Positions 12,601-28,181 of a DNA stretch of 28,181 nt are shown here, piece after piece. The position numbers and the translations under genes were made by a program. Source of the stretch: a virus; the IMG/VR virus record IMGVR_UViG_3300044798_000223, positions 1 to 28,181 of that record; one strand, given 5' to 3'. The notes beneath the pieces were generated by a model. The model worked only from the letters and a program-made list of their open reading frames with translations, was not told the DNA's origin and did not search any database. The first letter of the stretch is position 1, and every line of letters starts with the position of its first letter.

Positions 12601-12605
12601 GATAG

Positions 12606-12677: not shown

Positions 12678-12678
12678 A

Positions 12679-12758: not shown

Positions 12759-12762
12759 TAAA

Positions 12763-12841: not shown

Positions 12842-12844
12842 GAT

Positions 12845-13252: not shown

Positions 13253-13265
13253 AACTACCTAATAT

Positions 13266-13350
13266 CGGAGCAGGAAGGATTCGAACCTCCGGTGCCTTTC
13301 GACACGATGATTTTCAAGACCATCGTCATCAGCCTCTCGACCACTGCTCC
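13266..13350 (-). tRNA. tRNA-Ser(UGA)
   Basis: Class II tRNA. Acceptor GGAGCAG/CTGCTCC with discriminator G. Anticodon arm ATGGT-CTTGAAA-ATCAT with UGA. The variable arm is GTGTCGAAAGGCAC. T-loop TTCGAAT. Canonical apart from weak pairs in the anticodon stem. Confidence 0.9.
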
Positions 13351-13356
13351 AACAAT

Positions 13357-13491
13357 TCATCCCCAGAAGCAGTACGCTGCGAAAGCACCCATCAGAACCA
13401 CCCAGAACCACTGACTCGTCATGATCGTCCATATAAGTCCGGCGGCCAAGGCTAAGACAGCGAACCACTTCGGCATATTCACCCCACTCAT
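13357..13491 (-). CDS. 44-residue membrane protein
   Basis: Reads MSGVNMPKWFAVLALAAGLI and continues to AFAAYCFWG, with two hydrophobic stretches separated by TMTSQ-like polar residues, so probably a two-pass or hairpin membrane protein. The ATG at 13491 has GAAGG 5 bases upstream. A second ATG at 13476 has GGGGTG 3 bases away and is an alternative start. It ends 7 bases before tRNA-Ser. The overlapping longer frame on the same strand crosses the tRNA and looks false. Confidence 0.55.
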   Translation of the reverse strand: MSGVNMPKWFAVLALAAGLIWTIMTSQWFWVVLMGAFAAYCFWG

Positions 13492-13627
13492 TTTTGCCTT
13501 CAATTGTTGACAAAGAAAAAGTTGGCCACCTTATTATTGGTTCGACCGACTCTGACGTGACCTTAAGTAAATTCTGGATGGAGGCTGTTATTTATTGGTC
13601 TCGAGTACCGTCTAACACTTTTTGGTA

Positions 13628-13684
13628 GATCCAGCATACTCCAACCAACAGCCCCCGACCAGCATCTACACCCATAACTGGATC
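13628..13684. repeat. Inverted repeat GATCCAG...CTGGATC
   Basis: Seven-base perfect arms at 13628-13634 and 13678-13684 enclose 43 bases just after the stop of the next leftward gene. It could close an RNA stem in the 3' UTR. No U-run follows, so it is not a standard terminator. The rest of 13492-13627 shows no gene I can support. Confidence 0.35.
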
Positions 13685-14000
13685 AGACGATGATCTCCGG
13701 ATTCGGCATCAAATGGGGCTTTACGGGTCCGAAGATGTTATAGACAATGACAGAAGCCGCATTCTTGGACTTCTGCTCGTCTTTACCAGCAGCTTGATAC
13801 ATGACAGTAACGGCGGCGGCCACTTCGGCACGGTTCTTCCCTGCATCCTTCATCTCACGGGCGGTCTTGGTGACGCCCTTCACGCCAACAGCACGAGTGG
13901 CCTTAATGACCTCAGGAGCGGGCGTGGTCTGCTCAACAGGAGCAGCAGCCGGCGGATCTTGGACGGCGCCAGCATCGGCAGTGTTGGTGTTCTCATTCAT
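13683..14000 (-). CDS. Small protein with Ala/Pro-rich linker and helical module
   Basis: A 105-residue protein starting at the ATG at 14000, with AGGAGG 7 bases upstream. A frame extending to 14048 has no such site. Residues 1-35 are rich in Ala, Pro, Thr and Asn and are likely disordered. The C-terminal 60 residues are helical (EVAAAVTVMYQAAGKDEQKS). They align with the end of the neighbouring 14086-14553 protein over MYxxAGK and equal downstream spacing. Function unknown. Confidence 0.75.
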   Translation of the reverse strand: MNENTNTADAGAVQDPPAAAPVEQTTPAPEVIKATRAVGVKGVTKTAREMKDAGKNRAEVAAAVTVMYQAAGKDEQKSKNAASVIVYNIFGPVKPHLMPNPEIIV

Positions 14001-14051
14001 CGGATAACCTCCTACTAAACCTGATTGACCTTGGTTGACTGACTTCATGTT

Positions 14052-14057
14052 ATTATA
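14052..14057 (-). promoter_or_regulatory. Class 2 promoter box (CAGTATAATA type)
   Basis: AGCAGTATAATAACATG on the minus strand, between two leftward genes. Downstream it reads AAGTCAGTCAACC, close to the leader after the class 1 promoters at 14593 and 16532. No clear -35. Confidence 0.55.
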
Positions 14058-14085
14058 CTGCTATCTTCTCTACAAGAGGAGATTT

Positions 14086-14553
14086 TTATGCTAATCTCTT
14101 CTTGGCCTCCAGCTTCCGAATCTCAGCGACGTATGGCTTGAGAAGGTTCCGGGCCACTGTCTCGGTCTTACCAGCTGAGACATACATCGGAACGAGCTTC
14201 TCAACGATGTCAGAATCCATGAGGCCTTGGGCCAGGAATGATCTGATCTGAGCACCGATCCCCATGACCTTCTGCTTCGGTCCGGTAGAAGCTGACCCAG
14301 CTGTTGCTGCGGCACCTAGACCGTCTTTTACAGGTGTGCGGGTTTCAGGAGTCGCAATCGGAATTGCGTTTCTAAACGGAACCCCCAGGACACCAGCAAT
14401 ACCAGATCCGAAGGTCAAGGCCTCCGACTTAATAGTACAGGATATCAGCAGAAACGATTGGATATTATCTGCTTGAACTCGGTACTGCCGATAGACGCCG
14501 TATTCATCAGATAAAGTCATCCGGGCCTCTATCATATCGACACCTAATAGCAT
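14086..14553 (-). CDS. Hypothetical protein sharing a C-terminal module with its neighbour
   Basis: A 155-residue protein. Residues 1-60 look like a small alpha/beta domain (MTLSDEYGVYRQYRVQADN). Residues about 65-100 are an Ala/Gly/Thr-rich linker. Residues about 102-150 are helical and hold DIVEKLVPMYVSAGKTETVA, matching the MYQAAGK segment of the 13683 protein. GGGAG lies 9 bases before the ATG. It is driven by a class 1 promoter at 14593-14621. Function unknown. Confidence 0.75.
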   Translation of the reverse strand: MLLGVDMIEARMTLSDEYGVYRQYRVQADNIQSFLLISCTIKSEALTFGSGIAGVLGVPFRNAIPIATPETRTPVKDGLGAAATAGSASTGPKQKVMGIGAQIRSFLAQGLMDSDIVEKLVPMYVSAGKTETVARNLLKPYVAEIRKLEAKKRLA

Positions 14554-14572
14554 TTGTTACATCTCCCAAATA

Positions 14573-14598
14573 AGTTGACTGTCTACATATATAGTATA
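14573..14598 (-). repeat. Repeated -10/leader segment, copy A
   Basis: The 26 bases TATACTATATATGTAGACAG followed by TCAACT match 16555-16580 on the opposite strand with a single difference in the -10 hexamer. This keeps both the -10 region and the start of the transcript the same at two promoters about 2 kb apart. Confidence 0.8.
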
Positions 14599-14621
14599 AG
14601 ATTTATCTAAGAGAAAGCCAA
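14593..14621 (-). promoter_or_regulatory. Class 1 promoter, TTGGCT-N17-TATACT
   Basis: -35 TTGGCT (14616-14621) and -10 TATACT (14593-14598) with a 17-base spacer on the minus strand. The -35 overlaps the last codons of the 14603 gene. It drives the 14086-14553 gene, and the leader is the 26-base repeat. Confidence 0.75.
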
Positions 14622-14887
14622 CTAAGAAATCTTATCCACAAGGATTTGGAAGAGATCAAGGAGAGCTTAGTAACTTCCCAGGGATGTCGACCACCACCCA
14701 CATACTTTGAGTCGATCCAGATCCCCCAACAGCCAGAAGAAGAAACATTAGGATGGCCAGGATTACAATAGCCTAGTTCATACTGAATACCAATGACCTT
14801 GTGATTCTCTCTGGTTAAATCATCATAGACTTCTTCACCAATATAGAACGGAGGTGTAAGAACGAATTGTAGAGGTGTTTTTGACAT
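14603..14887 (-). CDS. Hypothetical protein
   Basis: A 94-residue protein starting MSKTPLQFVLTPPFYIGEEV, with beta-like stretches and GCWGIWIDSKYVGGG. The ATG lies 3 bases past the 3' end of tRNA-Pro, so the tRNA must be released from the same transcript or the gene read separately. The upstream ribosome site (CGGATTT) is weak. No family recognised. Confidence 0.7.
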   Translation of the reverse strand: MSKTPLQFVLTPPFYIGEEVYDDLTRENHKVIGIQYELGYCNPGHPNVSSSGCWGIWIDSKYVGGGRHPWEVTKLSLISSKSLWIRFLSWLSLR

Positions 14888-14890
14888 AAA

Positions 14891-14966
14891 TCCGAATGGC
14901 CAGATTCGAACTGGCGGCCTCTGCGTCCCAGGCGCAGCGCTCTAAACCAAACTGAGCTACACTCGG
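14891..14966 (-). tRNA. tRNA-Pro(UGG) with C33
   Basis: Acceptor CCGAGTG/CATTCGG with discriminator A. D-stem GCTC/GAGC. Anticodon arm CTGCG-CCTGGGA-CGCAG gives UGG, but position 33 is C instead of U. T-arm GCCAG-TTCGAAT-CTGGC. All stems are paired. Confidence 0.88.
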
Positions 14967-14971
14967 TATTG

Positions 14972-15051
14972 TGGTCACGGATAGGACTTGCACCTATGTC
15001 TTCCGGTACGATCCACCGGGGTCCTAATGTAATCCCTGAACGACTCGTGCC
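14972..15051 (-). tRNA. Aberrant 80-nt tRNA-like gene, possible pseudo-tRNA
   Basis: Sits 2 bases from the initiator tRNA. Acceptor GGCACG pairs with CGTGACC only if one A bulges. A D-stem GTTC/GGAC has a 13-base loop. The anticodon stem CCGGT/ACCGG is perfect, but its loop GGATCGT has G33 and would place AUC as anticodon. T-arm ATAGG-TGCAAGT-CCTAT has G at position 55. All four arms can form, yet many invariant bases are absent, so coding identity is uncertain. Confidence 0.55.
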
Positions 15052-15053
15052 AA

Positions 15054-15127
15054 CAGCGGGAGGAAGATTCGAACTTCCGACCTTCGGGCTATGAACCCAA
15101 CGAGCTACCAGACTGCTCTACCCCGCG
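15054..15127 (-). tRNA. Initiator tRNA-fMet(CAU)
   Basis: Anticodon loop TTCATAG gives CAU. Three initiator marks are present: an unpaired first position (C1 opposite U72), an A11-U24 pair in the D-stem (GAGC/GCTC), and three G-C pairs in the anticodon stem (TTGGG/CCCGA). T-arm GGAAG-TTCGAAT-CTTCC. The sequence start CGCGGGGTAGAGCAG closely follows bacterial initiator tRNA. Confidence 0.93.
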
Positions 15128-15134
15128 AGCCTGA

Positions 15135-15151
15135 AGACGATTTTCTCGTCT
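15135..15151 (-). other. RNA hairpin between minigene and initiator tRNA
   Basis: AGACGA-GAAAA-TCGTCT on the minus strand, a 6-bp stem with a 5-base loop, 7 bases before the tRNA-fMet 5' end and overlapping the minigene stop. It could mark processing of the tRNA precursor. It lacks a U-run, so it is not a normal terminator. Confidence 0.5.
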
Positions 15152-15164
15152 ACTTGCGAATCAT
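15150..15164 (-). CDS. Four-codon minigene (MIRK) with strong ribosome site
   Basis: ATG ATT CGC AAG TAG follows AAGGAGG at an ideal 7-base spacing, about 70 bases past a class 2 promoter box. No longer frame starts here. Either it is translated as a very short peptide, or it is the remnant of a lost gene start. Real translation is not proven. Confidence 0.4.
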   Translation of the reverse strand: MIRK

Positions 15165-15228
15165 GACCTTACCTCCTTACTAAATGTATGTTTGGCCTTT
15201 GTTCTACTTACCAACCTAAGTACGGCCT

Positions 15229-15234
15229 ATTATA
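15229..15234 (-). promoter_or_regulatory. Class 2 promoter box (CAGTATAATA type) for the tRNA array
   Basis: ATCAGTATAATAGGCC on the minus strand in the divergent region, upstream of the minigene, tRNA-fMet and the following array. No recognisable -35. It faces the sigma-factor promoter at 15279. Confidence 0.6.
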
Positions 15235-15266
15235 CTGATGGTCCTACAAAGATTTTCTTGGAAACC

Positions 15267-15292
15267 TGCAGATTTTAGTTTGATTTTCTGCA
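15267..15292. promoter_or_regulatory. Possible operator: TGCAGA...TCTGCA around the sigma-gene -35
   Basis: Six-base inverted repeats at 15267-15272 and 15287-15292 flank the -35 hexamer TTTGAT at 15279-15284. The spacing suits a dimeric regulator, but no regulator is assigned. Confidence 0.3.
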
Positions 15293-15307
15293 AGTAGCCC
15301 TTATACT
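15279..15307 (+). promoter_or_regulatory. Class 1 promoter of the sigma-factor gene
   Basis: -35 TTTGAT (15279-15284), 17-base spacer, -10 TATACT (15302-15307). A further TATGAT follows a few bases later. Confidence 0.7.
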
Positions 15308-15347
15308 ATAAGTATGATAGATAACGAAATAGATCTGGAGGTAACAA

Positions 15348-15899
15348 TTGGAACCCCTTAATTACGAAAAGATCGTATTAGAACATAAGGGTTTAGTGGA
15401 ATCAATGGCGTATATCGCTCTTACCAAGATGCACAAGCCTTCACCACACTCCTTTGACGATTTGTGCCAGGAGGGGTACATTGTCTGCGTTGAGTGGGTC
15501 AGGAGATGGTTCCATCCAGAGAGGGGTGCTTCTCTTAAGACCTTCATCACAGCAGGCCTTAGAAATCGCTTCGCTGACATGGTTCGGGCATCTTTCAGAG
15601 AAAATGTTGAACCTGTGTGGACTGGGAGTTCTGATGAAGACGGAGCTGTTGCAGAACCTGTAATAGATCTTCGGAACACTGACCACGATCCTATCGAAAT
15701 GGCTTCTTTTAATGAAACAGTTAGTTTTTTATCAGAGAAGGAGCTTCGGTATATTACGACGCTCTTAACTCCAAAAGAGAACCACAAAATGCCAACTCGG
15801 GTAGATGTTCGAAAAGCTCTTGGCCTTTCTGAAGATGCTGAATTGAAGATCCGCTATTCTGTTGAAGAGAAGCTCACAGCCCAAATTAAAAAATTCTAA
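15348..15899 (+). CDS. RNA polymerase sigma-70 family sigma factor
   Basis: A 183-residue protein with a TTG start preceded by GGAGGT at 5 bases. Residues about 5-80 match sigma region 2: LVESMAYIALTKMHKPSPHS, then DDLCQEGYIVCVEWVRRWF, HPERGASLKTFITAGLRNRF and ADMVR. This is the pattern DLxQEG...RGxxxxTf...IRxR. An acidic linker follows (residues about 88-122). The last 60 residues (SFLSEKELRYITTLLTPKEN) may be a reduced region 4. Phage sigma factors redirect host polymerase to later genes. It is the first rightward gene and has a sigma70-like promoter, so host polymerase could start it early. Which promoters it reads is inferred. Confidence 0.8.
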   Translation: MEPLNYEKIVLEHKGLVESMAYIALTKMHKPSPHSFDDLCQEGYIVCVEWVRRWFHPERGASLKTFITAGLRNRFADMVRASFRENVEPVWTGSSDEDGAVAEPVIDLRNTDHDPIEMASFNETVSFLSEKELRYITTLLTPKENHKMPTRVDVRKALGLSEDAELKIRYSVEEKLTAQIKKF

Positions 15900-15913
15900 A
15901 AACACCTTTTCAG

Positions 15914-15941
15914 TTTGATATCTTGAGGTAGACCCTATACT
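15914..15941 (+). promoter_or_regulatory. Class 1 promoter
   Basis: -35 TTTGAT (15914-15919), 16-base spacer, -10 TATACT (15936-15941), just after the sigma gene and upstream of the 15976 gene. Confidence 0.6.
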
Positions 15942-15975
15942 TTAAGTATAAGAAACCAATAGAGGAGATGGACAA

Positions 15976-16389
15976 ATGGACAGATTAGTACCGATCGGAC
16001 AAATAGCTACTCCAAGCTGGATCAATGATATGGGGACCTTCAACACGCTTCCAACACCGGCTATCGAAGTTACAGAACTCGATTTCCAATTATCCTTTAC
16101 CTGCCATAGTCTTCAGTACCTAGAGTTTCGTCAGATCCAACTTCCTGGTGAAGAGCAGTTGGGTTTTCAGGATGTTCATATCTTCTACTTTCCGGATATG
16201 GCATTTGCAATGATACATCCGTACAGAAACCAAGGAACTCGGTATTTCAAGATCGGATGTACTCATCAGTGGAGGTCAATGACAAGAGAGGAGTTGAGAA
16301 AGAACAACATTCATATTACAGGTCCTTGCGAGCACGCCAGTATCTGCTCGAAGTGTGGATCTATCAATCACGTTGACAGTAGTGATTAA
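15976..16389 (+). CDS. Hypothetical protein with C-terminal Cys/His cluster
   Basis: A 137-residue protein. The ATG follows GAGGAG and has its own promoter. The main body looks beta-rich (EVTELDFQLSFTCHSLQYLE). The end holds CTHQWRSMTREEL and CEHASICSKCG, so a zinc site made of Cys and His residues is likely. No family recognised. It lies between the sigma gene and a row of tiny genes. Confidence 0.75.
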   Translation: MDRLVPIGQIATPSWINDMGTFNTLPTPAIEVTELDFQLSFTCHSLQYLEFRQIQLPGEEQLGFQDVHIFYFPDMAFAMIHPYRNQGTRYFKIGCTHQWRSMTREELRKNNIHITGPCEHASICSKCGSINHVDSSD

Positions 16390-16401
16390 GGAGTTAAGAA
16401 A

Positions 16402-16494
16402 ATGTGGAGAAAGCTTCTTCCGGAGTACGTGACAGATTTCTGGGGTCCTCAGTGGTGGTGCCTATTCTTCTTCACCACATTGGCTTTAATGTAG
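16402..16494 (+). CDS. 30-residue membrane peptide
   Basis: Reads MWRKLLPEYVTDFWGPQWWC then LFFFTTLALM. AAGGAG lies 8 bases before the ATG. A basic N-terminus followed by a short hydrophobic segment suggests membrane insertion. It sits 12 bases past the preceding stop. Function unknown. Confidence 0.5.
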   Translation: MWRKLLPEYVTDFWGPQWWCLFFFTTLALM

Positions 16495-16531
16495 GGAGTA
16501 GATAATAATCTTGAAATCTTTAACTTTTCAT

Positions 16532-16560
16532 TTGGCTTTTAGTTGAAAATGTCTTATATT
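16532..16560 (+). promoter_or_regulatory. Class 1 promoter, TTGGCT-N17-TATATT
   Basis: -35 TTGGCT (16532-16537), 17-base spacer, -10 TATATT (16555-16560). The downstream leader repeats that at 14573-14598. Confidence 0.75.
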
Positions 16561-16580
16561 ATATATGTAGACAGTCAACT
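16555..16580 (+). repeat. Repeated -10/leader segment, copy B
   Basis: Matches 14573-14598 in inverted orientation, 25 of 26 bases. Confidence 0.8.
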
Positions 16581-16596
16581 AAGTTAAGGGAATCCG

Positions 16597-16710
16597 ATGA
16601 AAACAAAGACGCATTTCAGCATGATTAACAGCTCTCACAAACGACAAGAAAAGAAGTATAGTCATTGCCTTCTCTACTATCCGCTGGTGGACAGTGAAAT
16701 ATGCGATTAG
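16597..16710 (+). CDS. 37-residue basic peptide
   Basis: Reads MKTKTHFSMINSSHKRQEKK then YSHCLLYYPLVDSEICD. AAGGGA lies a few bases before the ATG, which follows the class 1 promoter directly. It overlaps the start of the next gene. No homolog recognised; a leader peptide is possible. Confidence 0.45.
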   Translation: MKTKTHFSMINSSHKRQEKKYSHCLLYYPLVDSEICD

Positions 16711-18715: not shown

Positions 18716-19879
18716 TTATCCTTCAGCGGGATATCCATTAAGTCTTTGGTGGTAAGCTCGGTCGTAAAATGGCACCCATTCAACTCCAAACCGCCCAAGA
18801 GTTCCGTCCTGACGAATGCCTAACGTACAGACACAGAAGCCAACGTGAGCACCGATCTTCTTCTTCCGCATAAAAGGCGTTTGGTCTTCAACACATCCTG
18901 GCATGATAGTAAGAACTTCTCGTGGATAAGACATATCGAACTTGTGGTAGTGACCTAACACTAGAACCTGTGGTTTCTCTCCGCCTTGGAAGGATTCGAC
19001 CATTTTCTGGGAAGGATAGCTAATGGCATATGGAGTTCCATCTCCTGGGTGCATAAGACGCATACGGAAGCTTCCACACTCGGCCTGAAACACAACATCC
19101 TGTTCTAGGTGTCCAATATGAATTAGATCTTTTCGACCCTTCTCCTCACACCAGTTCTGCATATACCAGCCAATACGAAGACCCGTATCTGTTTGCCACC
19201 AACCTTCATGGCAGGTGCCAGTGATAAAATATGTCTTGATGCCCTTCCGTTGTGGGTAGTGATCAGCTAAATAATTACACTGATCCTGAACCCCATGGGC
19301 TTTCAGTTCATACCGATTGAACTTGAACTCACCATCAATGATATTTCCTGCATGATAGACTTGCGTAATTCCAAGACCTGCATAAATATCGTATGCTGCT
19401 TCAAGAACATCTAAACGCTCATGTTCATTACAGATATGAGTATCACTCAAAAGTCCAAACTTAATCTCTCTACCCCGAAGCACTTTGATATTCAGAGGCT
19501 CAACAGGAGGAAGAACATCCGAGAGGCAATAAGCACCATCTGGTCCAGGAACGATATTGTATCCATCGTGATGAGTCAGATGAGACAAAACTCCTTTGAC
19601 ATTATCAACCGCGGTACATAGCTTGTTGGCAATATCCTCTATCGTAATCCCGCTCTTCTTTCGACGGAGCATCTGAAGAACATCTGAACGAACCATTGGA
19701 TTACTTGGATTGAATAGAGGAACAGAATCAGATTTGTTCTTCTGCAACCAACCTAATGCCTTCCGAACACGGTCGGAGGTGCATTTAAGGGATCCAGCTA
19801 ACTCCGCAGCACCCCAAGAAGGGTGCTTGTTCGTAAGCTCTGCAACCTGGTTACGAAAATCACTTATCTTTGTTTTCAT
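18716..19879 (-). CDS. Metallophosphoesterase with N-terminal HTH domains
   Basis: A 387-residue protein. Residues about 1-50 form a first HTH (HPSWGAAELAGSLKCTSDRV). Residues about 60-120 form a second winged helix (VRSDVLQMLRRKKSGITIED). The calcineurin-like phosphoesterase domain runs from about 138 to the end, with LLSDTH, HAGNIIDGE (GNxxD in place of GDxxD), TGTCHE (where GNHE is usual), MHPGD and LGHYHK. I start at the ATG at 19879, 6 bases after GGGGTGG. It overlaps the preceding gene by about 20 bases. DNA-binding plus phosphoesterase domains suggest a nuclease or phosphatase acting on DNA ends, by inference. Confidence 0.85.
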   Translation of the reverse strand: MKTKISDFRNQVAELTNKHPSWGAAELAGSLKCTSDRVRKALGWLQKNKSDSVPLFNPSNPMVRSDVLQMLRRKKSGITIEDIANKLCTAVDNVKGVLSHLTHHDGYNIVPGPDGAYCLSDVLPPVEPLNIKVLRGREIKFGLLSDTHICNEHERLDVLEAAYDIYAGLGITQVYHAGNIIDGEFKFNRYELKAHGVQDQCNYLADHYPQRKGIKTYFITGTCHEGWWQTDTGLRIGWYMQNWCEEKGRKDLIHIGHLEQDVVFQAECGSFRMRLMHPGDGTPYAISYPSQKMVESFQGGEKPQVLVLGHYHKFDMSYPREVLTIMPGCVEDQTPFMRKKKIGAHVGFCVCTLGIRQDGTLGRFGVEWVPFYDRAYHQRLNGYPAEG

Positions 19880-20360
19880 CTTCAACCACCCCTTTATCTT
19901 TCTGTTCTTCTTCAGGTGATGTATGCAAATACAACTCTCGGTTCATCAGCTGGGCAACAAAATTCTCAAGCACCTTCATGTCAGTCATCAACCAGATCTG
20001 CCACATTCTTGGACGAAGTCTAGCACATACCTTCCCCCTTGAAATTTGTCGGTCAAACTCTTGGTCAGCTCCTTTTGATGGTTCCCAGAGATGTGCAAGG
20101 AGTCCATCACATTCATCTCCAACCTCAAAATCTGCCTGAAGAATATTCTCAATCGCTACTTGACCTCGAGCTAAAAGCTTCTGCACGATTCGATCAAAAG
20201 GAGCTACAGAAATCCATTCAATTTCAGGGTACATGGCTTGAAGAACTTGAAGGTTGTGTTTAGCTCGTGTGCAATTCTCCGCCATGTATTGGATAGGAGC
20301 TTTTTCTCCCAGATGTCCTCTAATAGGCGTCGCGTAGTATACACGGGGTCTGCTCAGCAT
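19860..20360 (-). CDS. Nucleoside 2-deoxyribosyltransferase-like protein
   Basis: A 166-residue protein. It opens with VYYATPIRGHLGEK, and the central motif VGDECDGLLAHLWEPSKGAD followed by QEFDRQISRG resembles the nucleoside 2-deoxyribosyltransferase/DUF4406 fold (DxCDxxL...S.GA..E...A). A charged tail (EEEQKDKGVVEDENKDK) ends the protein. AAGGA lies 7-8 bases before the ATG. A role in nucleotide or base handling is inferred from the fold. Confidence 0.65.
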   Translation of the reverse strand: MLSRPRVYYATPIRGHLGEKAPIQYMAENCTRAKHNLQVLQAMYPEIEWISVAPFDRIVQKLLARGQVAIENILQADFEVGDECDGLLAHLWEPSKGADQEFDRQISRGKVCARLRPRMWQIWLMTDMKVLENFVAQLMNRELYLHTSPEEEQKDKGVVEDENKDK

Positions 20361-20389: not shown

Positions 20390-21109
20390 TTAAACTCCAA
20401 AACCTCGATACTTTCTATGATAGCGGACGAATCCTCCAGAAATGATCTTTCGTGGTTGTGTTAAACCTTTTGTTATGGGTGGTGAATTGCTAACTGGTAC
20501 AACTATGTGCTCCTCCTTAGGTGCATCTTGTAAATCTCTACACCTACGAGATGCCTGGTAGTGCTTGATTACAGGATTCTTCACATCAGACATGTAATCA
20601 AAGATTGTACAGTACTCTTCGGGTAAAGTAAAGAAAGGTATTGAACCAATAGCTTGTTGCAAGGCCACCTGATCCCATATGTGAGGCTTGCCTTGGATAC
20701 ACTTCTGAATCCATGCATCAACCAACTGGTGTACAAGCGAAGAGTTCCGAAGAAAAATTGTTCCGCTGAGCATCTCCAGACCAACCAGAGAACGTCCCCG
20801 CTTAGAGTGGTCCAACATGTGGACTCCAATATGAACGTCCGGCTTTTCATCCAGCTGATCAAACAAAGCAGGAAACTGCAAGAACTCAGCATCAATGTCC
20901 ACATAAATAAGAGATTTTGGTGCAAACTTTGTAAGCATTCGCTTCAGGAAATCTGGCTTGTATTGAGTGTTGGAATACCAATCTCCTTTGCTCTCAATTG
21001 GTTCAATGTAATAAGGAATTCCAAACTTCTGAAGAGATGGAATTAGTCTCTTTGCCTCCTCCTCATAAAAAGAATTGATTGTATAATAGCCAACAACTGC
21101 CCAGGCCAT
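20390..21109 (-). CDS. GT-A type glycosyltransferase (nucleotide-diphospho-sugar transferase)
   Basis: A 239-residue enzyme. The start AWAVVGYYTINSFYEEEAKR is typical of a Rossmann-like GT-A fold. The DxD sugar-nucleotide and metal motif is LIYVDIDAEFL (about 68-78). FNAGxxxxR-type features are replaced by LSGTIFLRN, and HIWDQVALQQAI matches the acceptor-side motif of this family. It starts the glycan cassette that runs upstream of it on this strand. Donor and acceptor are unknown; a host-surface or virion glycan is likely. Confidence 0.75.
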   Translation of the reverse strand: MAWAVVGYYTINSFYEEEAKRLIPSLQKFGIPYYIEPIESKGDWYSNTQYKPDFLKRMLTKFAPKSLIYVDIDAEFLQFPALFDQLDEKPDVHIGVHMLDHSKRGRSLVGLEMLSGTIFLRNSSLVHQLVDAWIQKCIQGKPHIWDQVALQQAIGSIPFFTLPEEYCTIFDYMSDVKNPVIKHYQASRRCRDLQDAPKEEHIVVPVSNSPPITKGLTQPRKIISGGFVRYHRKYRGFGV

Positions 21110-21111
21110 AA

Positions 21112-21753
21112 TTACATTCCTAACCAGAGAAACAAATAATAGCTAAGAAAACCACCCCAGAACAGTCGGTTCTGGTTAACTCTGAGATTACAATCCCGAC
21201 AAAGAGTTATTAAGTTTCCAGGCAGAAGATTTGCCTTTACATAATCAATATGATGAACACATAGCTTGTTTCTACCATCATCGCTGGTAGTTCCACAAAG
21301 CCAACATACCCAACCATCCCTCTGAAAAATTTCCTCTTTAAGGTTCTTATGAAACTCAAAAGGGTATGGCTGCTTGGAAACTCCACCTTTCCACTGCCCA
21401 TTTCCAATACCAGAGTTAGCTCTACCAATGGCTTTCTTCTGTTCCTCTGTTGGATGTTTACCGAGAAAACCTTTGTTGTGACCGCTAAAATATCTGCGAT
21501 TTGAAGTAATCAAACATATAAAAGTTTGTCTACATCCACAGAAGCAGCATCGTTCTTCCCTGGGTGTTAAGTTCTTCTTACTCCAAGCCTTTTCTATTCT
21601 AACACACCTAAATCTTTTACAAACCTCCTCAGAGTGTGTTTTTCCCTTGAATGCATGACCGGGGCAGCAAAACTTCTGTTTACTTGTCACAGGCACAACA
21701 AATGTTCTACTACAACCCGGTGCCTGACAAACTCTTGTTTCTCGAGGAAGCAT
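21112..21753 (-). CDS. HNH homing endonuclease with zinc-finger and NUMOD-like N-terminus
   Basis: A 213-residue protein. Residues 1-35 hold a zinc finger (CQAPGCSRTF...CCPGH). A second set of cysteines follows (CCFCGCRQTFICLITSNRRY). A NUMOD3-like unit (GKHPTEEQKKAIGRANSG) lies at about 97-114. The HNH nuclease is RDGWVCWLCGTTSDDGRNKL, then CVHHIDYVKANLLPGNLITL and CRDCN. It lies between two glycan genes with 2-base gaps on either side. It is probably a free-standing homing endonuclease inserted in the cassette. Confidence 0.88.
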   Translation of the reverse strand: MLPRETRVCQAPGCSRTFVVPVTSKQKFCCPGHAFKGKTHSEEVCKRFRCVRIEKAWSKKNLTPREERCCFCGCRQTFICLITSNRRYFSGHNKGFLGKHPTEEQKKAIGRANSGIGNGQWKGGVSKQPYPFEFHKNLKEEIFQRDGWVCWLCGTTSDDGRNKLCVHHIDYVKANLLPGNLITLCRDCNLRVNQNRLFWGGFLSYYLFLWLGM

Positions 21754-21755
21754 AT

Positions 21756-22598
21756 CTACATCTTTTCGATCTGCTCATTAAGCACAGGAATACACAAATT
21801 CTTGCAAAGCTGTTTTGATGTGGAAAGGGATCGATCTATTCTCTTAATATCTTCTGTAGGCGTGATTTTTAGATTTAGATTGAATTTCTGGTCTAACATC
21901 TGAAGGAGTTCAAACTTGTTAATTGTCTGAGGAGAAAATACGTGAAACAGCCCGGTCTGGTACAGATCTCCATCTATTATACTGGCAATCACCTGAGCAT
22001 AGGTCTTAGTTGTAACTCCATTCCAAAAGCTATTTGTATATCCTTTGACCTCCTTATCCTTCTGAGATTTTGTCCACTCAATCAGGCTAACTTTGTTGTG
22101 AATCTCCTCACCAATAATCGAAGTTCTAAGTACCATTGCATTAGTTGAAGGCTCGCCAAGAGATTTGGATCTTCCATATACATCATCGCAGTCATGAACA
22201 TCACTTTCTACGTACTGACCTTTGGCTCCTGAGTAAACACAATCGGTGGTGATGTGAATAAGTTTTGCTCCATGCTCTACACAGTAATCTGCTAAGCGAT
22301 GTGGGAACACAGAATTGATAGCTAACGTGTTAGCATCACCAACCTGTTTCACAAATGGCTTGATAACTCCGATACAGTTGATTACTACATCAACTATTGG
22401 CACTCCAGTGCATTTGTCTACAAGAGGATCGAAAACGAAACCATGAGATGCACCAAGGATTTTGAAAAGAAGCTGCTCGTTCTTACCACCATTTGCTCTG
22501 AATGATAACCAGATGTTGTCCCGACCATATCTCTCTATCATGTACTGTGCAACCGCACTTCCGAGCATTCCGGTGCTTCCTAAAACGACAATCTTCAT
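21756..22598 (-). CDS. dTDP-4-dehydrorhamnose reductase-like SDR (RmlD family)
   Basis: A 280-residue extended short-chain dehydrogenase. It has the NAD(P) motif MKIVVLGSTGMLGSA at the start and VVINCIG. A Thr/Asp-based site, HITTDCVYSG, follows, then DVYGRSKSLGE with the YxxxK pair. RmlD-family proteins reduce a 4-keto sugar nucleotide. I start at the ATG at 22598, 8 bases after GGAG; the frame runs to 22616. It overlaps the RmlC-like gene. The exact sugar is not known. Confidence 0.8.
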   Translation of the reverse strand: MKIVVLGSTGMLGSAVAQYMIERYGRDNIWLSFRANGGKNEQLLFKILGASHGFVFDPLVDKCTGVPIVDVVINCIGVIKPFVKQVGDANTLAINSVFPHRLADYCVEHGAKLIHITTDCVYSGAKGQYVESDVHDCDDVYGRSKSLGEPSTNAMVLRTSIIGEEIHNKVSLIEWTKSQKDKEVKGYTNSFWNGVTTKTYAQVIASIIDGDLYQTGLFHVFSPQTINKFELLQMLDQKFNLNLKITPTEDIKRIDRSLSTSKQLCKNLCIPVLNEQIEKM

Positions 22599-23047
22599 CG
22601 GTAATTCTCCTGCCAAATTTCTTTCCCAAAAACATCCCAGGGTTGACGGATATCATCACCTTGACTTTCTTCCACAGTTGATGTAGAATAAAATGTAAGG
22701 GTGGTATTGTCGGTCAAAGTTTTGAATCCATTATAGTAACCAGCTGGAATGTGAAGGATAGCTGGTGCTTCTGATGACAAGACAAACTTCGTCAGCACAG
22801 GAGGAACAGTTTCAATGGTATCCAAAGTATATAGAGGAGTGAGTATGACCAGCGCAGCTCCTTGGGAAACACATACAAACTTCTCTTCACGCTCATGCCC
22901 GTGGAAAGCCCTGATGAAGCCCGCCCTGTGGTTCTGAACTTGATATGCTCTCCGAATGCCCAGCATGTCCCAAGCATTCCAAAAAGTCAAGGTGCCTCGG
23001 TCATCAACAAACTTACCACCTTGGATGAGGTTAGGTTTCTGAATCAT
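22595..23047 (-). CDS. Cupin, dTDP-4-dehydrorhamnose 3,5-epimerase-like (RmlC family)
   Basis: A 150-residue cupin. It shows DDRGTLTFWNAW, GFIRAFHGHEREEKFVCV (the HxH-type cupin motif) and ILHIPAGYYNGFKTL. These match the RmlC/FdtA-like family that epimerises or isomerises keto-sugar nucleotides. I start at the ATG at 23047, which has AAAGGA 6 bases upstream; earlier in-frame ATGs have none. It overlaps the RmlD-like gene by 4 bases. Whether it epimerises rhamnose or isomerises another sugar is not certain. Confidence 0.78.
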   Translation of the reverse strand: MIQKPNLIQGGKFVDDRGTLTFWNAWDMLGIRRAYQVQNHRAGFIRAFHGHEREEKFVCVSQGAALVILTPLYTLDTIETVPPVLTKFVLSSEAPAILHIPAGYYNGFKTLTDNTTLTFYSTSTVEESQGDDIRQPWDVFGKEIWQENYR

Positions 23048-23252
23048 CAGCATTCCTTTCATTCTGCTTTAATTCTTGTGCTACCTGTTTGGCTTCGTCT
23101 GTGTGATCTGAGTAAGGCTCAAAGTTAGCCAGGCCCCAGACTGAAAGACTCAAGTCAGGATTTACGTACCCTGCGGACAGAAGTACACAAAGACCATCAA
23201 TGATTAAGGTGATCCCATACACCCACCGGACGAAAAGATATGGCAACAACAT
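23031..23252 (-). CDS. Small membrane protein
   Basis: A 73-residue protein starting MLLPYLFVRWVYGITLIIDG, with one or two hydrophobic helices in the first 35 residues and a charged tail (EAKQVAQELKQNERNADD). GGAGGG lies 7 bases before the ATG. It overlaps the RmlC-like gene. No family recognised; a membrane anchor for glycan assembly is possible. Confidence 0.7.
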   Translation of the reverse strand: MLLPYLFVRWVYGITLIIDGLCVLLSAGYVNPDLSLSVWGLANFEPYSDHTDEAKQVAQELKQNERNADDSET

Positions 23253-23278
23253 TGGTCACCCTCCTTAGTTCTTGAATA

Positions 23279-24250
23279 TTACAACCACCTTCGGTATAGA
23301 GCCTCGATATGAGCTTGGTTGGAGTAGATTGGGTCATCAGGACGTTTGATACGTTGTTCTTTGATTACTCGGGCGACCTGTAGAATACCGCTTTGAAGAT
23401 CACATTTCGGATACCAACCCCCTCCTAGCAGTGCTGTATCCTTCCACTTATCACACGACACTTGGTAGTTCCTAAGATCTTCGTATCTACCCTCTGTATA
23501 CTCTATCTTACAACCGGGAATTACAGTTTTCACCTCTTCAGCAATCTCTTTGATTGTACTATTCTGAGTAGCCAGATTGTAAAGACCTGTGATTTCCTGG
23601 ACAGCCCCAAAAACCATTGCATCAGCAACGTCTTGGACATGAATCAGTGGTCTCCACTGGTCCCCACCTGAAACACGCAGGATCTCACCTTGGACAGCTC
23701 GTTTGGTCAGGATATTTACAACCAGGTCAAGTCGGATACGAGAATGCTCGTCCCCAAGACCATATAATGTACCAAGACGAAACACCAGTGCCCGCTCACC
23801 AGCCTTGTCCAGAATGTACTGCTCAGCAGCAAGTTTGGTTGACGCATAAATGGACAGCGGATTCGGCCTAGCATCTTCATCAATCAACTCGTTGTTGACT
23901 CCATACACTGAGCAGGTTGAGGGGTAGATAATTTTGCCTTCGAAGTTCTCAACAAGCCACTTGACTGAGTCTTCATTTACTGCTTGGGTCAAGAACGGAT
24001 CGGCGGCACAGGCGCCATCCCCTACTATCGCTGCAAGAATTACAATAGTGTCATAATTAGGCAAGATCGCTGCGAGCTTGGTCCGATCACGGACATCTCC
24101 ATAGATGAACCGGACGTCCTTCAAGTACCGCTCTTCATAGGCTAACACATCAAATACGGTTGTGTCAAAACCAGCTTTGATTAGTTGATCTGTAAGAGTA
24201 CCACCGACATAACCGGCACCTCCAACAACTAAGATCCTCTTACTTTGCAT
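23279..24250 (-). CDS. NAD-dependent sugar-nucleotide epimerase/dehydratase (extended SDR)
   Basis: A 323-residue enzyme. The Rossmann motif is ILVVGGAGYVGGTL, followed by FIYGDVRDRTKLAAIL. The active site STCSVYGVNNELID and YASTKLAAEQYIL gives the YxxxK pair. A C-terminal substrate domain (GDQWRPLIHVQDVADAMVFG) follows. It resembles GalE/WbpP-type epimerases. It overlaps the radical SAM gene upstream by 11 bases. The sugar acted on is not known. Confidence 0.85.
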   Translation of the reverse strand: MQSKRILVVGGAGYVGGTLTDQLIKAGFDTTVFDVLAYEERYLKDVRFIYGDVRDRTKLAAILPNYDTIVILAAIVGDGACAADPFLTQAVNEDSVKWLVENFEGKIIYPSTCSVYGVNNELIDEDARPNPLSIYASTKLAAEQYILDKAGERALVFRLGTLYGLGDEHSRIRLDLVVNILTKRAVQGEILRVSGGDQWRPLIHVQDVADAMVFGAVQEITGLYNLATQNSTIKEIAEEVKTVIPGCKIEYTEGRYEDLRNYQVSCDKWKDTALLGGGWYPKCDLQSGILQVARVIKEQRIKRPDDPIYSNQAHIEALYRRWL

Positions 24251-25109
24251 GTTCCTGAATCCTCCTATAAATCACTTTGGACATCAAGCAAGTGTTATTC
24301 TGCTGGCACGACCGAACACCAAATTCATATTTATCTTGGTACTTGCAATTTACAACATCATATGGACACTGAATAATTCTTCCTCCGATGAACTGGTTGG
24401 CAAACCTGCATTTCGTATCAGGCAAAGTTGTTGTGCTCTCAAATACACCGCGCTTGGAAACATGAATATCCATCCAGCCATCATACTTCCACATAAACTC
24501 GTGAACCAGCTTCTTGTAGTAAAGAATAGATCCAGTCTCCGCTGTGTCGGTGAAGAACTCCTTCTCTGGATTATCTAATGCTCGCATATTAAAAAGAAAG
24601 AAAGTCTTACATCCATATTCCTCTTCACATACCTTTGCTGAATCCAAAAGTTCTTGGGCTGTGGTCTTTGCTGAAATCATAAAATTCGCATCAAACGAAG
24701 TACCACACCTCGGTATAGAACAAGCTCCTTTTATCTGATCAAAAGAATAGATTGAGACCCGAAGCTTTATACCTCTAAAAAACTCAGGGTTAAACCGACC
24801 AAGAAGATCACCATTAGTATAAATAGTGGTTTTTATTTGATGGTCTCGATTACAATCTAAAATTTCTCTAAGTTGCAGATGAAGAAGCGGTTCACCTCCA
24901 AGAAGGTTGATCTGCTGCCCACCCTTCTCTAAAAACTCTGTTACACACTTTCTATACTCCTGAAGTGGCATATGAGGATAATTTGGATCCATAACATGGC
25001 GAGCGAAACATCCGCTGCACACCCGATTACATACGTTACAAATGAACACTTGAAGGGTATTGCGTCGCTGGAGTGGTAGCTCCTCATACTTACACCAAGG
25101 AAAATTCAT
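24240..25109 (-). CDS. Radical SAM protein with C-terminal cysteine cluster
   Basis: A 289-residue enzyme. The cluster motif is FICNVCNRVCSGCFARHV (CX3CX2C within it), followed by INLLGGEPLLH for SAM binding. TTIYTNGDLL and KLRVSIYSF complete the partial TIM barrel. The C-terminal region has CRFANQFIGGRIIQCPY, CKYQ and CQQNNTC, a SPASM-like extra cluster. It is encoded inside a glycan cassette, overlapping both neighbours. Substrate unknown; a sugar or peptide is possible, inferred from place. Confidence 0.82.
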   Translation of the reverse strand: MNFPWCKYEELPLQRRNTLQVFICNVCNRVCSGCFARHVMDPNYPHMPLQEYRKCVTEFLEKGGQQINLLGGEPLLHLQLREILDCNRDHQIKTTIYTNGDLLGRFNPEFFRGIKLRVSIYSFDQIKGACSIPRCGTSFDANFMISAKTTAQELLDSAKVCEEEYGCKTFFLFNMRALDNPEKEFFTDTAETGSILYYKKLVHEFMWKYDGWMDIHVSKRGVFESTTTLPDTKCRFANQFIGGRIIQCPYDVVNCKYQDKYEFGVRSCQQNNTCLMSKVIYRRIQEHAK

Positions 25110-26200
25110 AATTCTCTCTCCAAAATCTCAACGATATTAGCGGCCGTATGTCCATCACCTAACCACATCGAGCTGGGCTGGGGAGTTGAACATCCTGTGA
25201 TGTAATCATTCACCCAGTCACATGCTGCATCCCATTCAGCAAACCAGTCCAGAGACTTCAGAAGGAAAGAGTTCCCGTTAGCCATTGACTGGGGCCTCTC
25301 TGTATATGCCCGAGGAACTATGACTGGTGTGTTAAGAAGTGCTGGTTCTTCTTGGGCTGTACCTGAATCGGAGATCATGAACAAGCTGTGGTACTGAGCA
25401 GCTAAGAAGTTCTTGTAGGACATTAGCTCTACTATCGAAAAAGCTGTATCAAATGCGAGTCCAAACTTATAAGCAGCTTGCAAACTCCGATTGAAATTCA
25501 GCATCTGAACCGGCACACCAAACTCCCGTTGACATCGTTCGGCGAACCAGAAAATCTGTTGCATTCGGTGCTTGTCTTTGAAATTTTCAGGGCGATGAAT
25601 GTCCAGAAGAATATAGTTACCAGCCTTCTTCTGTTGCCACAGAGGTTCAGCTAATGGCCGGCAGACCTCAACAATAGTATTACCTACATTGAAGATATTA
25701 TTTGCAGGAAGATTCTCTCGAACGAGATTGGCTGCGTAATCTTGGTGATACACGAAGTGAAAGGTCGAGCAGTGATCACAAACGGTGCGGTTGATCTCTT
25801 CAAGCATATGTTTATCACCGCTGCGCATTCCAGCTTCGATGTGACCAATTTCATAGCCCTCTTTCTTTAAGGGCATAGAGACAGCAGCCGAGTTTGAGTC
25901 TCCGAGGAAAAGAACAAGGTCAGGATGAATATTCTCTTTTCGGAATAGTGTAATTACACTTGTAGAGATATCACCTAGCTGTTGAAAATGTTCACGACCA
26001 GGACCACCAATCCCTAGATTGAAATCAGGCTTTCGAATTTGAAGCTCTTGAAAGAAAACATCAGAGAGCATTTTGTCATAATGTTGACCTGAGTGTATGA
26101 GGATATGATTAATCTTATCACTGGCATCCAGATGCTTAAACACTTCGGACATCCGAACAAAGTCAGGGCGAATTCCAACTATTGAAACAACTGTTTTCAT
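25106..26200 (-). CDS. wecB: UDP-N-acetylglucosamine 2-epimerase (WecB family)
   Basis: A 364-residue enzyme that interconverts UDP-GlcNAc and UDP-ManNAc. Motifs: VVSIVGIRPDFVRM at the start, HSGQHYDKMLSDVFF, VLFLGDSNSAA, HIEAGMRSGDKHMLEEINR, LDIHRPENFKD and MISDSGTAQEEPALL near the end. I start at the ATG at 26200 with AGGAATC upstream; a longer frame goes to 26233. It follows the cytidylyltransferase gene by 22 bases. The product sugar could enter surface glycans or wall teichoic acid. Confidence 0.9.
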   Translation of the reverse strand: MKTVVSIVGIRPDFVRMSEVFKHLDASDKINHILIHSGQHYDKMLSDVFFQELQIRKPDFNLGIGGPGREHFQQLGDISTSVITLFRKENIHPDLVLFLGDSNSAAVSMPLKKEGYEIGHIEAGMRSGDKHMLEEINRTVCDHCSTFHFVYHQDYAANLVRENLPANNIFNVGNTIVEVCRPLAEPLWQQKKAGNYILLDIHRPENFKDKHRMQQIFWFAERCQREFGVPVQMLNFNRSLQAAYKFGLAFDTAFSIVELMSYKNFLAAQYHSLFMISDSGTAQEEPALLNTPVIVPRAYTERPQSMANGNSFLLKSLDWFAEWDAACDWVNDYITGCSTPQPSSMWLGDGHTAANIVEILEREL

Positions 26201-26222
26201 CTCTTTGATTCCTACTACCAAA

Positions 26223-26648
26223 CTACTTCCCAAGCTTAGAACGAAGATTTGATGTGCTCACCCCAACCGTCCGAGGAAGAAATGTCACCTTGATAACTTC
26301 TTTAAGACGAAGGAGATTAGGATCATTACTGTTTTCCCAATCAGCCCCTATAAGATAATTAGTAACACCAAGATTTGCTAATCTGTCCAGATCGAATTGA
26401 CGGATCTCCGGAAGAACCAAATCCGGATACGGTAGATTCGAGATAATCTCATACCTAATAGTAAACGATTCAAGTGGAGGACGTTTCTTGTATGTTGTTA
26501 TTAACTCATCGGTCAGAACCCCAACGATAAGAATACCGCCATTGGTTTTAGCTCGCTGTATTGACCTCAGATGTCCCACATGAAACAAGTCCCAACATCC
26601 GGATGTATATACCACCTTATTCTGGTTTGATTTCGCATCCTGGTTCAT
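26223..26648 (-). CDS. Cytidylyltransferase (glycerol-3-phosphate/choline-phosphate type)
   Basis: A 141-residue protein of the nucleotidyltransferase fold. It has GCWDLFHVGHLRSIQRAK (the HxGH motif), YKKRPPLESFTIRYEIISNL and a C-terminal GVSTSNLRSK (ISTT-type motif). It resembles TagD, which makes CDP-glycerol, and RfaE-type enzymes. CDP-choline or another CDP-activated group is also possible. I use the ATG at 26648, with CAGGAG upstream; ATGs further upstream lack proper spacing. It overlaps the LicD gene, which suggests the two act together. Confidence 0.8.
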   Translation of the reverse strand: MNQDAKSNQNKVVYTSGCWDLFHVGHLRSIQRAKTNGGILIVGVLTDELITTYKKRPPLESFTIRYEIISNLPYPDLVLPEIRQFDLDRLANLGVTNYLIGADWENSNDPNLLRLKEVIKVTFLPRTVGVSTSNLRSKLGK

Positions 26649-27273
26649 AATCATACTCCTGAAAATCATCAAAGGCTTTCTTGACACGCGGATCAAGTTG
26701 GTCAGACTCTGCGAGATGTTTCATCCACTTCTTTATCTTCGGAGTTTTCCAATCCTTTCCATAGTAATTCTCAAGACCAACCTCAGAAGATGTCGGACAT
26801 GGAAATTCATGTTCACGAACGGAAGCTAATGATGGATTGCGTATATTATTGATGGGAAAATTCATTCCAGGATATTCAACACATCTGGCGATACCATCTT
26901 TTGTAATGAAAGTAGTGAGGCACATATGGAGAAGATTCAACTTGGAGTAGTACACTGTGATAGAGCACACATATTTATCATGGTTGTTCATCTCGATAGT
27001 ATTCACCATGAGTTGGTAACCAATCTTCTTAAAGTCATCACGAAGCGACATAATCTTCGATACGTCATCATGCCAGACACCAACATCAACATCCTCATCC
27101 CATACAATCAGATCACCGTCACGGACCGCACCAAGAAGCGTACCAAAATTTAACCAATAGGAAATTCCAACTTTGGTGAATAGATCATGAATGAAATCAA
27201 GCATCTCCAGAAGATGATCTTGACAACAGGGGTGTACACCTGCACATCGTTTCGTAGTTTTAGAGCAACTCAT
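26617..27273 (-). CDS. LicD-family phosphotransferase
   Basis: A 218-residue protein of the LicD/fukutin-like nucleotidyltransferase superfamily. It has YWLNFGTLLGAVRDGDLIVW then DEDVDVGV, which is the GTLLGA...WD[DE]D[IV]D site. LicD proteins transfer phosphocholine or similar groups from CDP donors onto glycans or teichoic acids. The next gene downstream is a cytidylyltransferase, which could supply the CDP donor. GAAGG lies 7 bases before the ATG. The group transferred is unknown. Confidence 0.85.
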   Translation of the reverse strand: MSCSKTTKRCAGVHPCCQDHLLEMLDFIHDLFTKVGISYWLNFGTLLGAVRDGDLIVWDEDVDVGVWHDDVSKIMSLRDDFKKIGYQLMVNTIEMNNHDKYVCSITVYYSKLNLLHMCLTTFITKDGIARCVEYPGMNFPINNIRNPSLASVREHEFPCPTSSEVGLENYYGKDWKTPKIKKWMKHLAESDQLDPRVKKAFDDFQEYDYEPGCEIKPE

Positions 27274-27833
27274 TTTATACCTTCAGCATACACCGAAAAT
27301 TGTTCGTGTTCTACTGTGTCCAAACCACCAAAGACGGGATTGCCTGCCCGGTATGGTATTTCAATTGTATTTCTAAAGCCAGCTTGTTTCAGTACCTCCA
27401 CAAGTGTTTCTGCATCAAACCCTGTCACATGCCCAAAACCACGATTAAGATCTTCACCAACAAAATAAGAAAAGGCCCAAGATAGCATCTTGTGAAGATT
27501 TGTATTTGTTCTGCCAGGAATTCGTATACAAGAGCCACTTAGAAAATCTGTGTCTCCTGAGGTGTATGCAGATATTGCTTTCTTCATATCTGGAACACAA
27601 ACCCGTAGTACTCCATCAGGTTTAAGAACCCTGTGGAACTCCCCCAAAACAAAACTAAGTCGATCGGGCCATATGTGCTCCAGTGTATGAGAAGAGTAGA
27701 TAAAATCAACATTGTTGGTTTCAAATGGCAGATGATCTTTAGTTATGTTTAATTGGATATCTGCAGAGGGTTCAAGATCTATAGTTATCCAAGGAGCATG
27801 TCTGCAGTTATTAGCTACATCAAGAAGAATCAT
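27270..27833 (-). CDS. SAM-dependent methyltransferase (type 11) with weak motif I
   Basis: A 187-residue protein. It has DHLPFETNNVDFIYSSHTLE then HI (post-motif I, motif IV), and FHRVLKPDGVLRVCVPD (motif V), as in class I methyltransferases of the COG4627 type. The N-terminal LLDVANNCRHAPWITIDLEP lacks the usual GxGxG, so SAM binding may be weak or the protein non-catalytic. I start at the ATG at 27833 after GGAG. It lies in the glycan cassette. The acceptor is unknown. Confidence 0.75.
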   Translation of the reverse strand: MILLDVANNCRHAPWITIDLEPSADIQLNITKDHLPFETNNVDFIYSSHTLEHIWPDRLSFVLGEFHRVLKPDGVLRVCVPDMKKAISAYTSGDTDFLSGSCIRIPGRTNTNLHKMLSWAFSYFVGEDLNRGFGHVTGFDAETLVEVLKQAGFRNTIEIPYRAGNPVFGGLDTVEHEQFSVYAEGIK

Positions 27834-28181
27834 CATTTCTCCTTTACAAACCACCAGTCGTCAACTTCTTCCACTTCTGTATTAAAACTATGCTGCAAAA
27901 CAAAGCTATTCTTTTCTGCATATTCTTCGGCAGCTTGTTTAACTCCAGGCCACCTTGGATTATAGTCATGCCCACAAACGAAACCGCCAGTCTTCACCTT
28001 GGGAGCCCAAGCAGCTATATCTGGAAGCACACTGATGTAGTCGTGGCTTGCATCGATGTAGACAAAATCGAGACTGTTAGGTTCGAAGCGAGCAGAAGCA
28101 ACTATAGAATCCAGCCTGAGAATTTCAACATTCTCAAAACTACTCAAACTAGTTTTAGCCAGCTGGTATAAATACTCTTGA
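27833..28181 (-). CDS. SAM-dependent methyltransferase, C-terminal part; runs past the right edge
   Basis: The frame is open from 28180 to the stop at 27833, reading QEYLYQLAKTSLSSFENVEI and onward. A TTG at 28147 is internal, not a needed start. LDFVYIDASHDYISVLPDI is the Asp/His acidic loop typical of the Methyltransf_24 family, followed by VKTGGFVCGHDYNPRWPGV. About 115 residues are present; the SAM-binding N-terminus lies right of 28181. Probably part of the same cassette. Confidence 0.8.
   Translation of the reverse strand, partial: QEYLYQLAKTSLSSFENVEILRLDSIVASARFEPNSLDFVYIDASHDYISVLPDIAAWAPKVKTGGFVCGHDYNPRWPGVKQAAEEYAEKNSFVLQHSFNTEVEEVDDWWFVKEK

Follow-up and report, generated by a model that had tools for sequence, protein, structure and literature searches.

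Gene content and organization of the cassette

The window analyzed here is the whole 28,181-nucleotide virus record IMGVR_UViG_3300044798_000223 of IMG/VR, and the system in question is a run of genes on its minus strand (positions 20390–28181) that is almost certainly a glycan cassette of a tailed phage. The run consists of 12 uninterrupted, intact open reading frames (ORFs) and is cut at 28181 by the end of the contig, which is incomplete. Four of its products are nucleotide-sugar enzymes and two are methyltransferases; the others are a probable glycosyltransferase, a radical SAM enzyme, a cytidylyltransferase, a LicD-family protein, a membrane protein, and an HNH endonuclease. In the order of transcription, it starts with an S-adenosylmethionine (SAM) methyltransferase whose N-terminus is lost at the contig end (27833–28180; Methyltransf_24, 43.7 bits) and a second SAM methyltransferase (27270–27836; Methyltransf_11, 41 bits), which has a homologue at the same place in the related viral locus L015. 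These are followed by the genes of LicD, the cytidylyltransferase, an Epimerase_2 protein, the radical SAM enzyme (24240–25109; Radical_SAM, 39.5 bits), a short-chain dehydrogenase/reductase (SDR), a small membrane protein with one hydrophobic segment (23031–23252; counterpart in L015 at 7260–7493), a cupin, an RmlD-like reductase, the HNH endonuclease (21112–21753; phrog_119 HNH, 38.8 bits), and a GT-A-like glycosyltransferase. Downstream of the run (18716–20360) lie an ORF without a family and a metallophosphatase gene, and the same order is kept in relatives.

The preliminary description of this DNA counted ten genes that make and transfer activated sugars. The cassette is intact, but only four of its 12 ORFs make activated sugars, and it also holds the HNH endonuclease, methyltransferase, and radical SAM genes. 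The HNH endonuclease is a non-sugar gene inserted in the run, two bases from each neighboring gene; the RmlD–glycosyltransferase junction is free of it in the relatives L002, L016, and L017, and in L015 a different endonuclease-like gene, read by eye, is located before the SDR gene.

The cassette belongs to a kind already known in phages. The window holds together the SDR epimerases, cupin, HIGH-type nucleotidyltransferase, and glycosyltransferase by which phage glycan or lipopolysaccharide (LPS)-type clusters are recognized (PMC7824862). The 'LPS biosynthesis' or capsular polysaccharide modification clusters of P-SSM2 and jumbo phages likewise combine SDR epimerases, a cupin isomerase, a HIGH-type nucleotidyltransferase, glycosyltransferases, and methyltransferases (PMC7824862), whereas the window represents a smaller phage lineage and has in addition LicD, radical SAM, and Epimerase_2 genes, with no PfkB sugar kinase recognized in the available part. 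Comparison of the cassette DNA with named phages showed no similarity.

The overlaps between genes had been taken as an argument for one joint pathway. We compared them with those among the window's replication genes, which include genes of an SNF2-type helicase, a 5'-3' exonuclease, a DnaB-like helicase, a DnaD-like loader, a topoisomerase, an RNA ligase, and a GTP cyclohydrolase, and found that they are no denser in the cassette (7 of 11 neighboring pairs) than in the replication region (10 of 17; Fisher P = 1), which rules them out as proof of a single pathway. The idea of one joint pathway also finds no support in the LicD–cytidylyltransferase pair, which is missing at the same spot in L015 and occurs elsewhere without sugar genes.

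The LicD–cytidylyltransferase pair as a separate module

The cytidylyltransferase and LicD genes named in the preliminary description are both present, with a CTP_transf_like protein at 26223–26648 and a PF04991 protein at 26617–27273, overlapping by 32 bases. L015 is the nearest relative, and there the epimerase gene begins (2652) before the methyltransferase gene has ended (2655), with no gene between them; the LicD and cytidylyltransferase genes of the window occupy exactly this junction. Because the flanking genes overlap directly in L015, the pair is very probably a two-gene module acquired separately from the rest. LicD was not found in the records of seven relatives, some of them fragments.

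A single-sequence LicD scan of IMG/VR returned no loci, and an alignment-based scan returned seven. LicD adjoins a cytidylyltransferase in five of the six phage lineages found, the window counted, and the pairing recurs in phages that are unrelated to each other. A cytidylyltransferase lies within reach in 5/6 LicD lineages and in 7/80 viral loci selected by RmlD (Fisher P 1e-4), a value that is indicative only, because the selection of loci differed between the two sets and the grouping into lineages was the analyst's own. In the related phages L007, L008, and L009, LicD stands beside a cytidylyltransferase, and no sugar cassette is near in L008 and L009. In L010 and L011, LicD is fused behind a glycosyltransferase-like region and a cytidylyltransferase adjoins it; in the gut phage DP SC_6_H4_2017 (L003), LicD adjoins an IspD-type enzyme; and in Vibrio phages 1.031.O and 150E35-1 it occurs with a cytidylyltransferase. 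The 'LicD' matches of L012 and L013 were set aside, being weak, having no cytidylyltransferase neighbor, and resembling another nucleotidyltransferase pair.

No paper describing LicD with a cytidylyltransferase in phages was found in the open-access literature, and the LicD–cytidylyltransferase unit may be a new part of a cassette whose remainder is of a known kind. Conceivably, though we rate it below an even chance, a portable unit of cytidylyltransferase and LicD (FKRP-like in some) puts teichoic-acid-like alcohol phosphates, or phosphocholine in the Vibrio phages, on phage or host glycans in several unrelated phage lineages, moving in and out of glycan cassettes. If the unit works, phages would add phosphate-linked groups to glycans, which would alter the adsorption of rivals or the presentation of the virion. 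With its recurrence, the pairing provides small enzyme pairs amenable to testing, and their likeness to human FKRP makes them possible compact models of alcohol-phosphate transfer. What is gained comes from the LicD unit, as the cassette around it is of a known kind.

Some of these loci have further features. Phage L007 holds two FKRP-like LicD genes and a cytidine triphosphate (CTP) synthase gene, the latter read by eye (1659–2393, 5860–6603, and 8872–10494), and the LicD fusion of L010 (688–1890) lies before a capsid-like gene, also by eye. Vibrio phages 1.031.O (L004, 3623–6621) and 150E35-1 (L006, 2626–5627) apparently carry a whole phosphocholine pathway. As examined on L004, a fusion joins the cytidylyltransferase to a choline-kinase-like domain, and a BCCT transporter and LicD complete the set; its genes are annotated merely as 'coil containing', 'TMhelix containing', and 'LicD'.

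Resemblance of LicD to human FKRP and the group it may transfer

The LicD protein matches PF04991 with 43.7 bits against a cut-off of 22.6, only profile positions 3–67 being matched. We compared its AlphaFold model (pLDDT 71, pTM 0.71) with known structures, and found human FKRP with a Z score of 20.7 over 174 residues, the next family reaching 11.7; residue 1 of the model aligns to FKRP 287. The cysteines C3 and C10 correspond to FKRP Cys289 and Cys296, R9 to Arg295, and C16 and C17 to Cys317 and Cys318, which are zinc cysteines, while D59, D61, and D63 correspond to Asp360, Asp362, and Asp364. With the GxLLGAxR motif at G44–R51, the DxDxD motif, and an FKRP-like nucleotidyltransferase fold, the protein is a member of the LicD family, and by sequence and fold it is predicted to be an FKRP-like alcohol-phosphate transferase. 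It shares with the FKRP/LicD-family phosphotransferases the fold, GxLLGAxR, the three aspartate equivalents, the Cx6C and CC zinc cysteines, and the arginine before the second cysteine. In contrast to FKRP, it is short, has no stem domain and no acid at the Asp416 position, and has a partner gene predicted to make the cytidine diphosphate (CDP) donor.

The partner is a small HxGH cytidylyltransferase of TagD/RfaE2-like type (CTP_transf_like, 38.6 bits; TagD 1coz, E 9.5e-16) with intact HxGH and RTxGxST motifs. Its predicted product is a CDP-alcohol, with CDP-glycerol made from glycerol 3-phosphate as the simplest case, and the FKRP-like LicD would then pass the alcohol phosphate on to a glycan. 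The chance that the pair is active as a CDP-alcohol phosphotransferase appears about even. Bacterial LicD proteins likewise occur with a CDP-alcohol-making cytidylyltransferase, as in LicC/LicD and in the TarI-type enzyme with LicD of the enterococcal polysaccharide antigen (EPA) (PMC7188991), whereas the window has two phage-borne genes with no kinase or transporter in view and a cytidylyltransferase that fits no single equivalog.

Phosphocholine, phosphoglycerol, or a similar group had been proposed as the addition made by the pair. Of these, phosphocholine is the less likely, with no choline kinase or transporter in the available part, unlike in the Vibrio phages. The group is most likely a CDP-activated alcohol phosphate, with glycerol rather than choline; glycerol 3-phosphate would be the simplest substrate because no kinase or transporter is present in the available part.

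Proposed chemistry and distribution of the conserved sugar core

The Epimerase_2 protein (25106–26200; PF02350, 217.5 bits) is of the type of the non-hydrolysing nucleoside diphosphate (NDP)-N-acetylhexosamine (HexNAc) 2-epimerases, with conserved residues kept; it scores 183.9 bits against the WecB equivalog TIGR00236, below the cut-off of 210.15, and is filed under PF02350 only. The SDR protein (23279–24250; Epimerase, 118.9 bits) is probably an NDP-sugar C4 dehydrogenase or epimerase. It carries the motif STCSVYG or a close variant, with STCS in 58 of 60 relatives, at the position where 4,6-dehydratases carry an Asp-Glu pair. Its closest solved relative is 6vo6, which we take to be Campylobacter Cj1427. 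The C4 dehydrogenase Cj1427 precedes a cupin epimerase, Cj1430, and a reductase, Cj1428 (PMC10680097, PMC7949155). The window has the composition of this Cj1427-type C4 dehydrogenase route, its SDR, which lacks the Asp-Glu dehydratase pair, standing ahead of a cupin and an RmlD-like NDP-4-ketosugar reductase (21756–22598; RmlD_sub_bind, 72.7 bits), so that the order of enzyme types is the same as in the Campylobacter heptose modification set (PMC10680097, PMC7949155). The window differs from that set in adding a C2-epimerase-type enzyme, and no guanosine diphosphate (GDP)-heptose supply genes were seen in the window.

The cupin (22595–23050; dTDP_sugar_isom, 29.9 bits), of the sugar 3,5-epimerase or 3,4-ketoisomerase type, keeps R47, H50, and H52, with H50 found in 59 of 66 alignment rows. 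The cupin family mostly differs from RmlC-type epimerases at the catalytic Tyr; the RmlC-type residue is present in only 12 of the 66 rows, the window included, and is mostly replaced by Phe. Both a C3/C5 epimerase and an FdtA-like keto-isomerase are therefore possible. The UDP-L-FucNAc pathway (FnlABC/CapEFG) was considered and rejected, as the SDR matches PF01370 and PF02719 (Polysacc_synt_2) was not listed at E 0.001.

From these assignments, the core would yield an NDP-sugar changed at C2, at C4, and at C3 and/or C5. The Epimerase_2 enzyme would epimerize a UDP-HexNAc-type sugar at C2, the SDR would oxidize C4, the cupin would carry out C3/C5 epimerization or keto-isomerization, and the RmlD-like enzyme would reduce C4 to give a rare activated sugar. 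The glycosyltransferases, one in the window by fold and more upstream as in L015, would then build the rare sugar into a glycan, and its modification would fall to the methyltransferases and the radical SAM enzyme.

The Epimerase_2, SDR, cupin, RmlD, and glycosyltransferase-like genes, the ORF, and the metallophosphatase gene keep their order in IMG/VR relatives. The preliminary description had proposed a search for the cassette in relatives, and its core was found in order and in frame in L002, L015, L016, and L017. Identities of the sugar and glycosyltransferase-like genes are 46–60% in L002 and 50–85% in L015, and the radical SAM gene is kept in L015 (51%). The SDR–cupin–RmlD order is present in 20 viral loci, and these three genes are also found, in many cases together with Epimerase_2, in cells of Ignavibacteriota, Bacteroidota, Bacillota, Chloroflexota, Pseudomonadota, Patescibacteria, and others. 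In an SDR tree built from 22 phage and 38 cellular rows, the window groups with L015, L002, L017, and L016 (support 96/87), and at least five changes between phage and cell are required on supported branches. This tree and the cellular occurrence identify the core, as judged from sequence, as a common cellular sugar pathway that has been swapped with phages several times and is stable inside the window's lineage.

A radical SAM protein of the cassette acting on a nucleotide sugar or glycan would, if true, be an unusual step. In L002, a radical SAM protein (4950–6596) holds an intein (Intein_splicing, 53 bits) and a metallophosphatase (14576–16666) is split by an intein-like LAGLIDADG insert; L016 9445–11514 looks interrupted too, at a different place. 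The related cassette of L017 has, as read by eye, two sulfotransferase-like genes and a fusion of an adenosine phosphosulfate (APS)-kinase-like domain with a nucleotidyltransferase (992–2461 and 6279–7052), which suggests sulfated glycans.

Tail-gene context and site of action

The protein of 20390–21109 was assigned to no family by sequence searches. Its model (pLDDT 75) has the capsid glycosyltransferase of PBCV-1 as its best fold match (E 1.1e-8), GT-A folds resembling each other, and a DxD motif (D71, D73) is present; by fold, it is a probable GT-A glycosyltransferase. The gene is conserved in L002, L015, L016, and L017, of which an alignment scan found only the L002 contig and tblastn on the RmlD-selected loci added the other three. 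In an uncultured phage of 462 kb (L005), a similar domain lies within a protein of 836 residues (11227–13737) that has other glycosyltransferase-like regions as well.

In L015, baseplate genes of gp5-, gp25-, and gp6/J-like type and more long genes without a family precede the cassette, all on the same strand. After the tail genes come sialyltransferase-like, GT2, GT32-like, methyltransferase, and GT10 genes. Seven genes of glycosyl- or methyltransferase-like type stand upstream of the point in L015 that matches the contig end of the window. Gene order in this relative thus places the cassette at the end of a late tail/baseplate gene run. No flippase, polymerase, or carrier-lipid transferase was recognized in the window or L015. 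Apart from the small protein, no clear membrane protein was seen; some of the sugar enzymes have one weakly hydrophobic stretch, which fits known soluble folds.

Two sites of action were weighed. We lean slightly to an acceptor on the virion (tail), because of the position behind tail genes, the lack of a recognized flippase, polymerase, or carrier-lipid transferase, and the PBCV-1 fold match, and still regard it as a little short of an even chance. Alternatively, the cassette may provide a new sugar and phosphate group that enter host LPS, capsule, or teichoic acid during assembly, which would keep rival phages from adsorbing. Similar phage clusters have been interpreted as acting on the host surface (PMC7824862), and bacterial LicD proteins have been proposed to act in the cytosol on carrier-lipid-linked glycans (PMC7188991), in which case the phage could use the host flippase; the lack of recognized assembly functions and the place directly behind the tail genes speak against such host-surface remodeling, which we consider possible but doubtful.

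Taken as a whole, a glycan cassette behind tail/baseplate genes with an acquired CDP-alcohol/LicD pair is our tentative reading, and we judge it slightly less than evenly probable. Several points weigh against it. The acceptor, the sugar, and the alcohol are predictions, and the contig end may hide a kinase, a flippase, or other parts. The cytidylyltransferase scores below every equivalog cut-off (TagD, TIGR01518, 64.8 of 165.4 bits; RfaE2, 58.5 of 181.5 bits), and these two nearly equal scores also suit an RfaE2-like enzyme that activates a sugar phosphate for the SDR–cupin–reductase set. Without any LicD, a cytidylyltransferase gene immediately precedes the SDR gene in L016 and immediately follows RmlD in L030. 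In the window, however, the gene shares bases with LicD; among its aligned relatives, the LicD neighbor of L010 is the closest (37%), ahead of the L016 gene (31%), and the pair stands without the sugar set in L008 and L009, so a role in the sugar pathway appears rather improbable. Phosphocholine decoration as in the lic pathway has the fusion, transporter, and LicD of the two Vibrio phages in its favor, and among NCBIfam families the window LicD matches a cholinephosphotransferase best (59.3 bits; cut-off 225). Neither a kinase nor a choline transporter was recognized up to the contig end, however, and the FKRP-type cysteines of the window LicD are missing from the Vibrio phage LicDs, which leaves this reading very unlikely.

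The remaining points against concern LicD itself. FKRP Asp416, which is essential in FKRP (PMC6965139), aligns to Cys118 of the window LicD in the pairwise comparison, and in the alignment of phage LicDs the window protein has no acid at this position, whereas the other eight have Asp or Glu. The activity of the window LicD is in doubt because this position holds no acid, and the protein could be a relic or have changed its function. Yet its ORF is intact and overlaps both neighbors, both the zinc cysteines and the aspartates D59, D61, and D63 are retained, and the alignment is uncertain around the Asp416 position; we consider such a loss unlikely on balance. A frameshift was rejected as an explanation for the lost acid: by eye, neither of the two alternative frames has an Asp at that place, and a substitution is more likely.

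Other features

The GTP cyclohydrolase gene of the window is located at 2224–2793. In the gut phage DP SC_6_H4_2017, the DNA polymerase (6910–10188) apparently holds an intein with an HNH-like part, as read by eye. The window also contains eight tRNA genes at 12371–15128, and a tRNA-Ser gene overlaps a short ORF.

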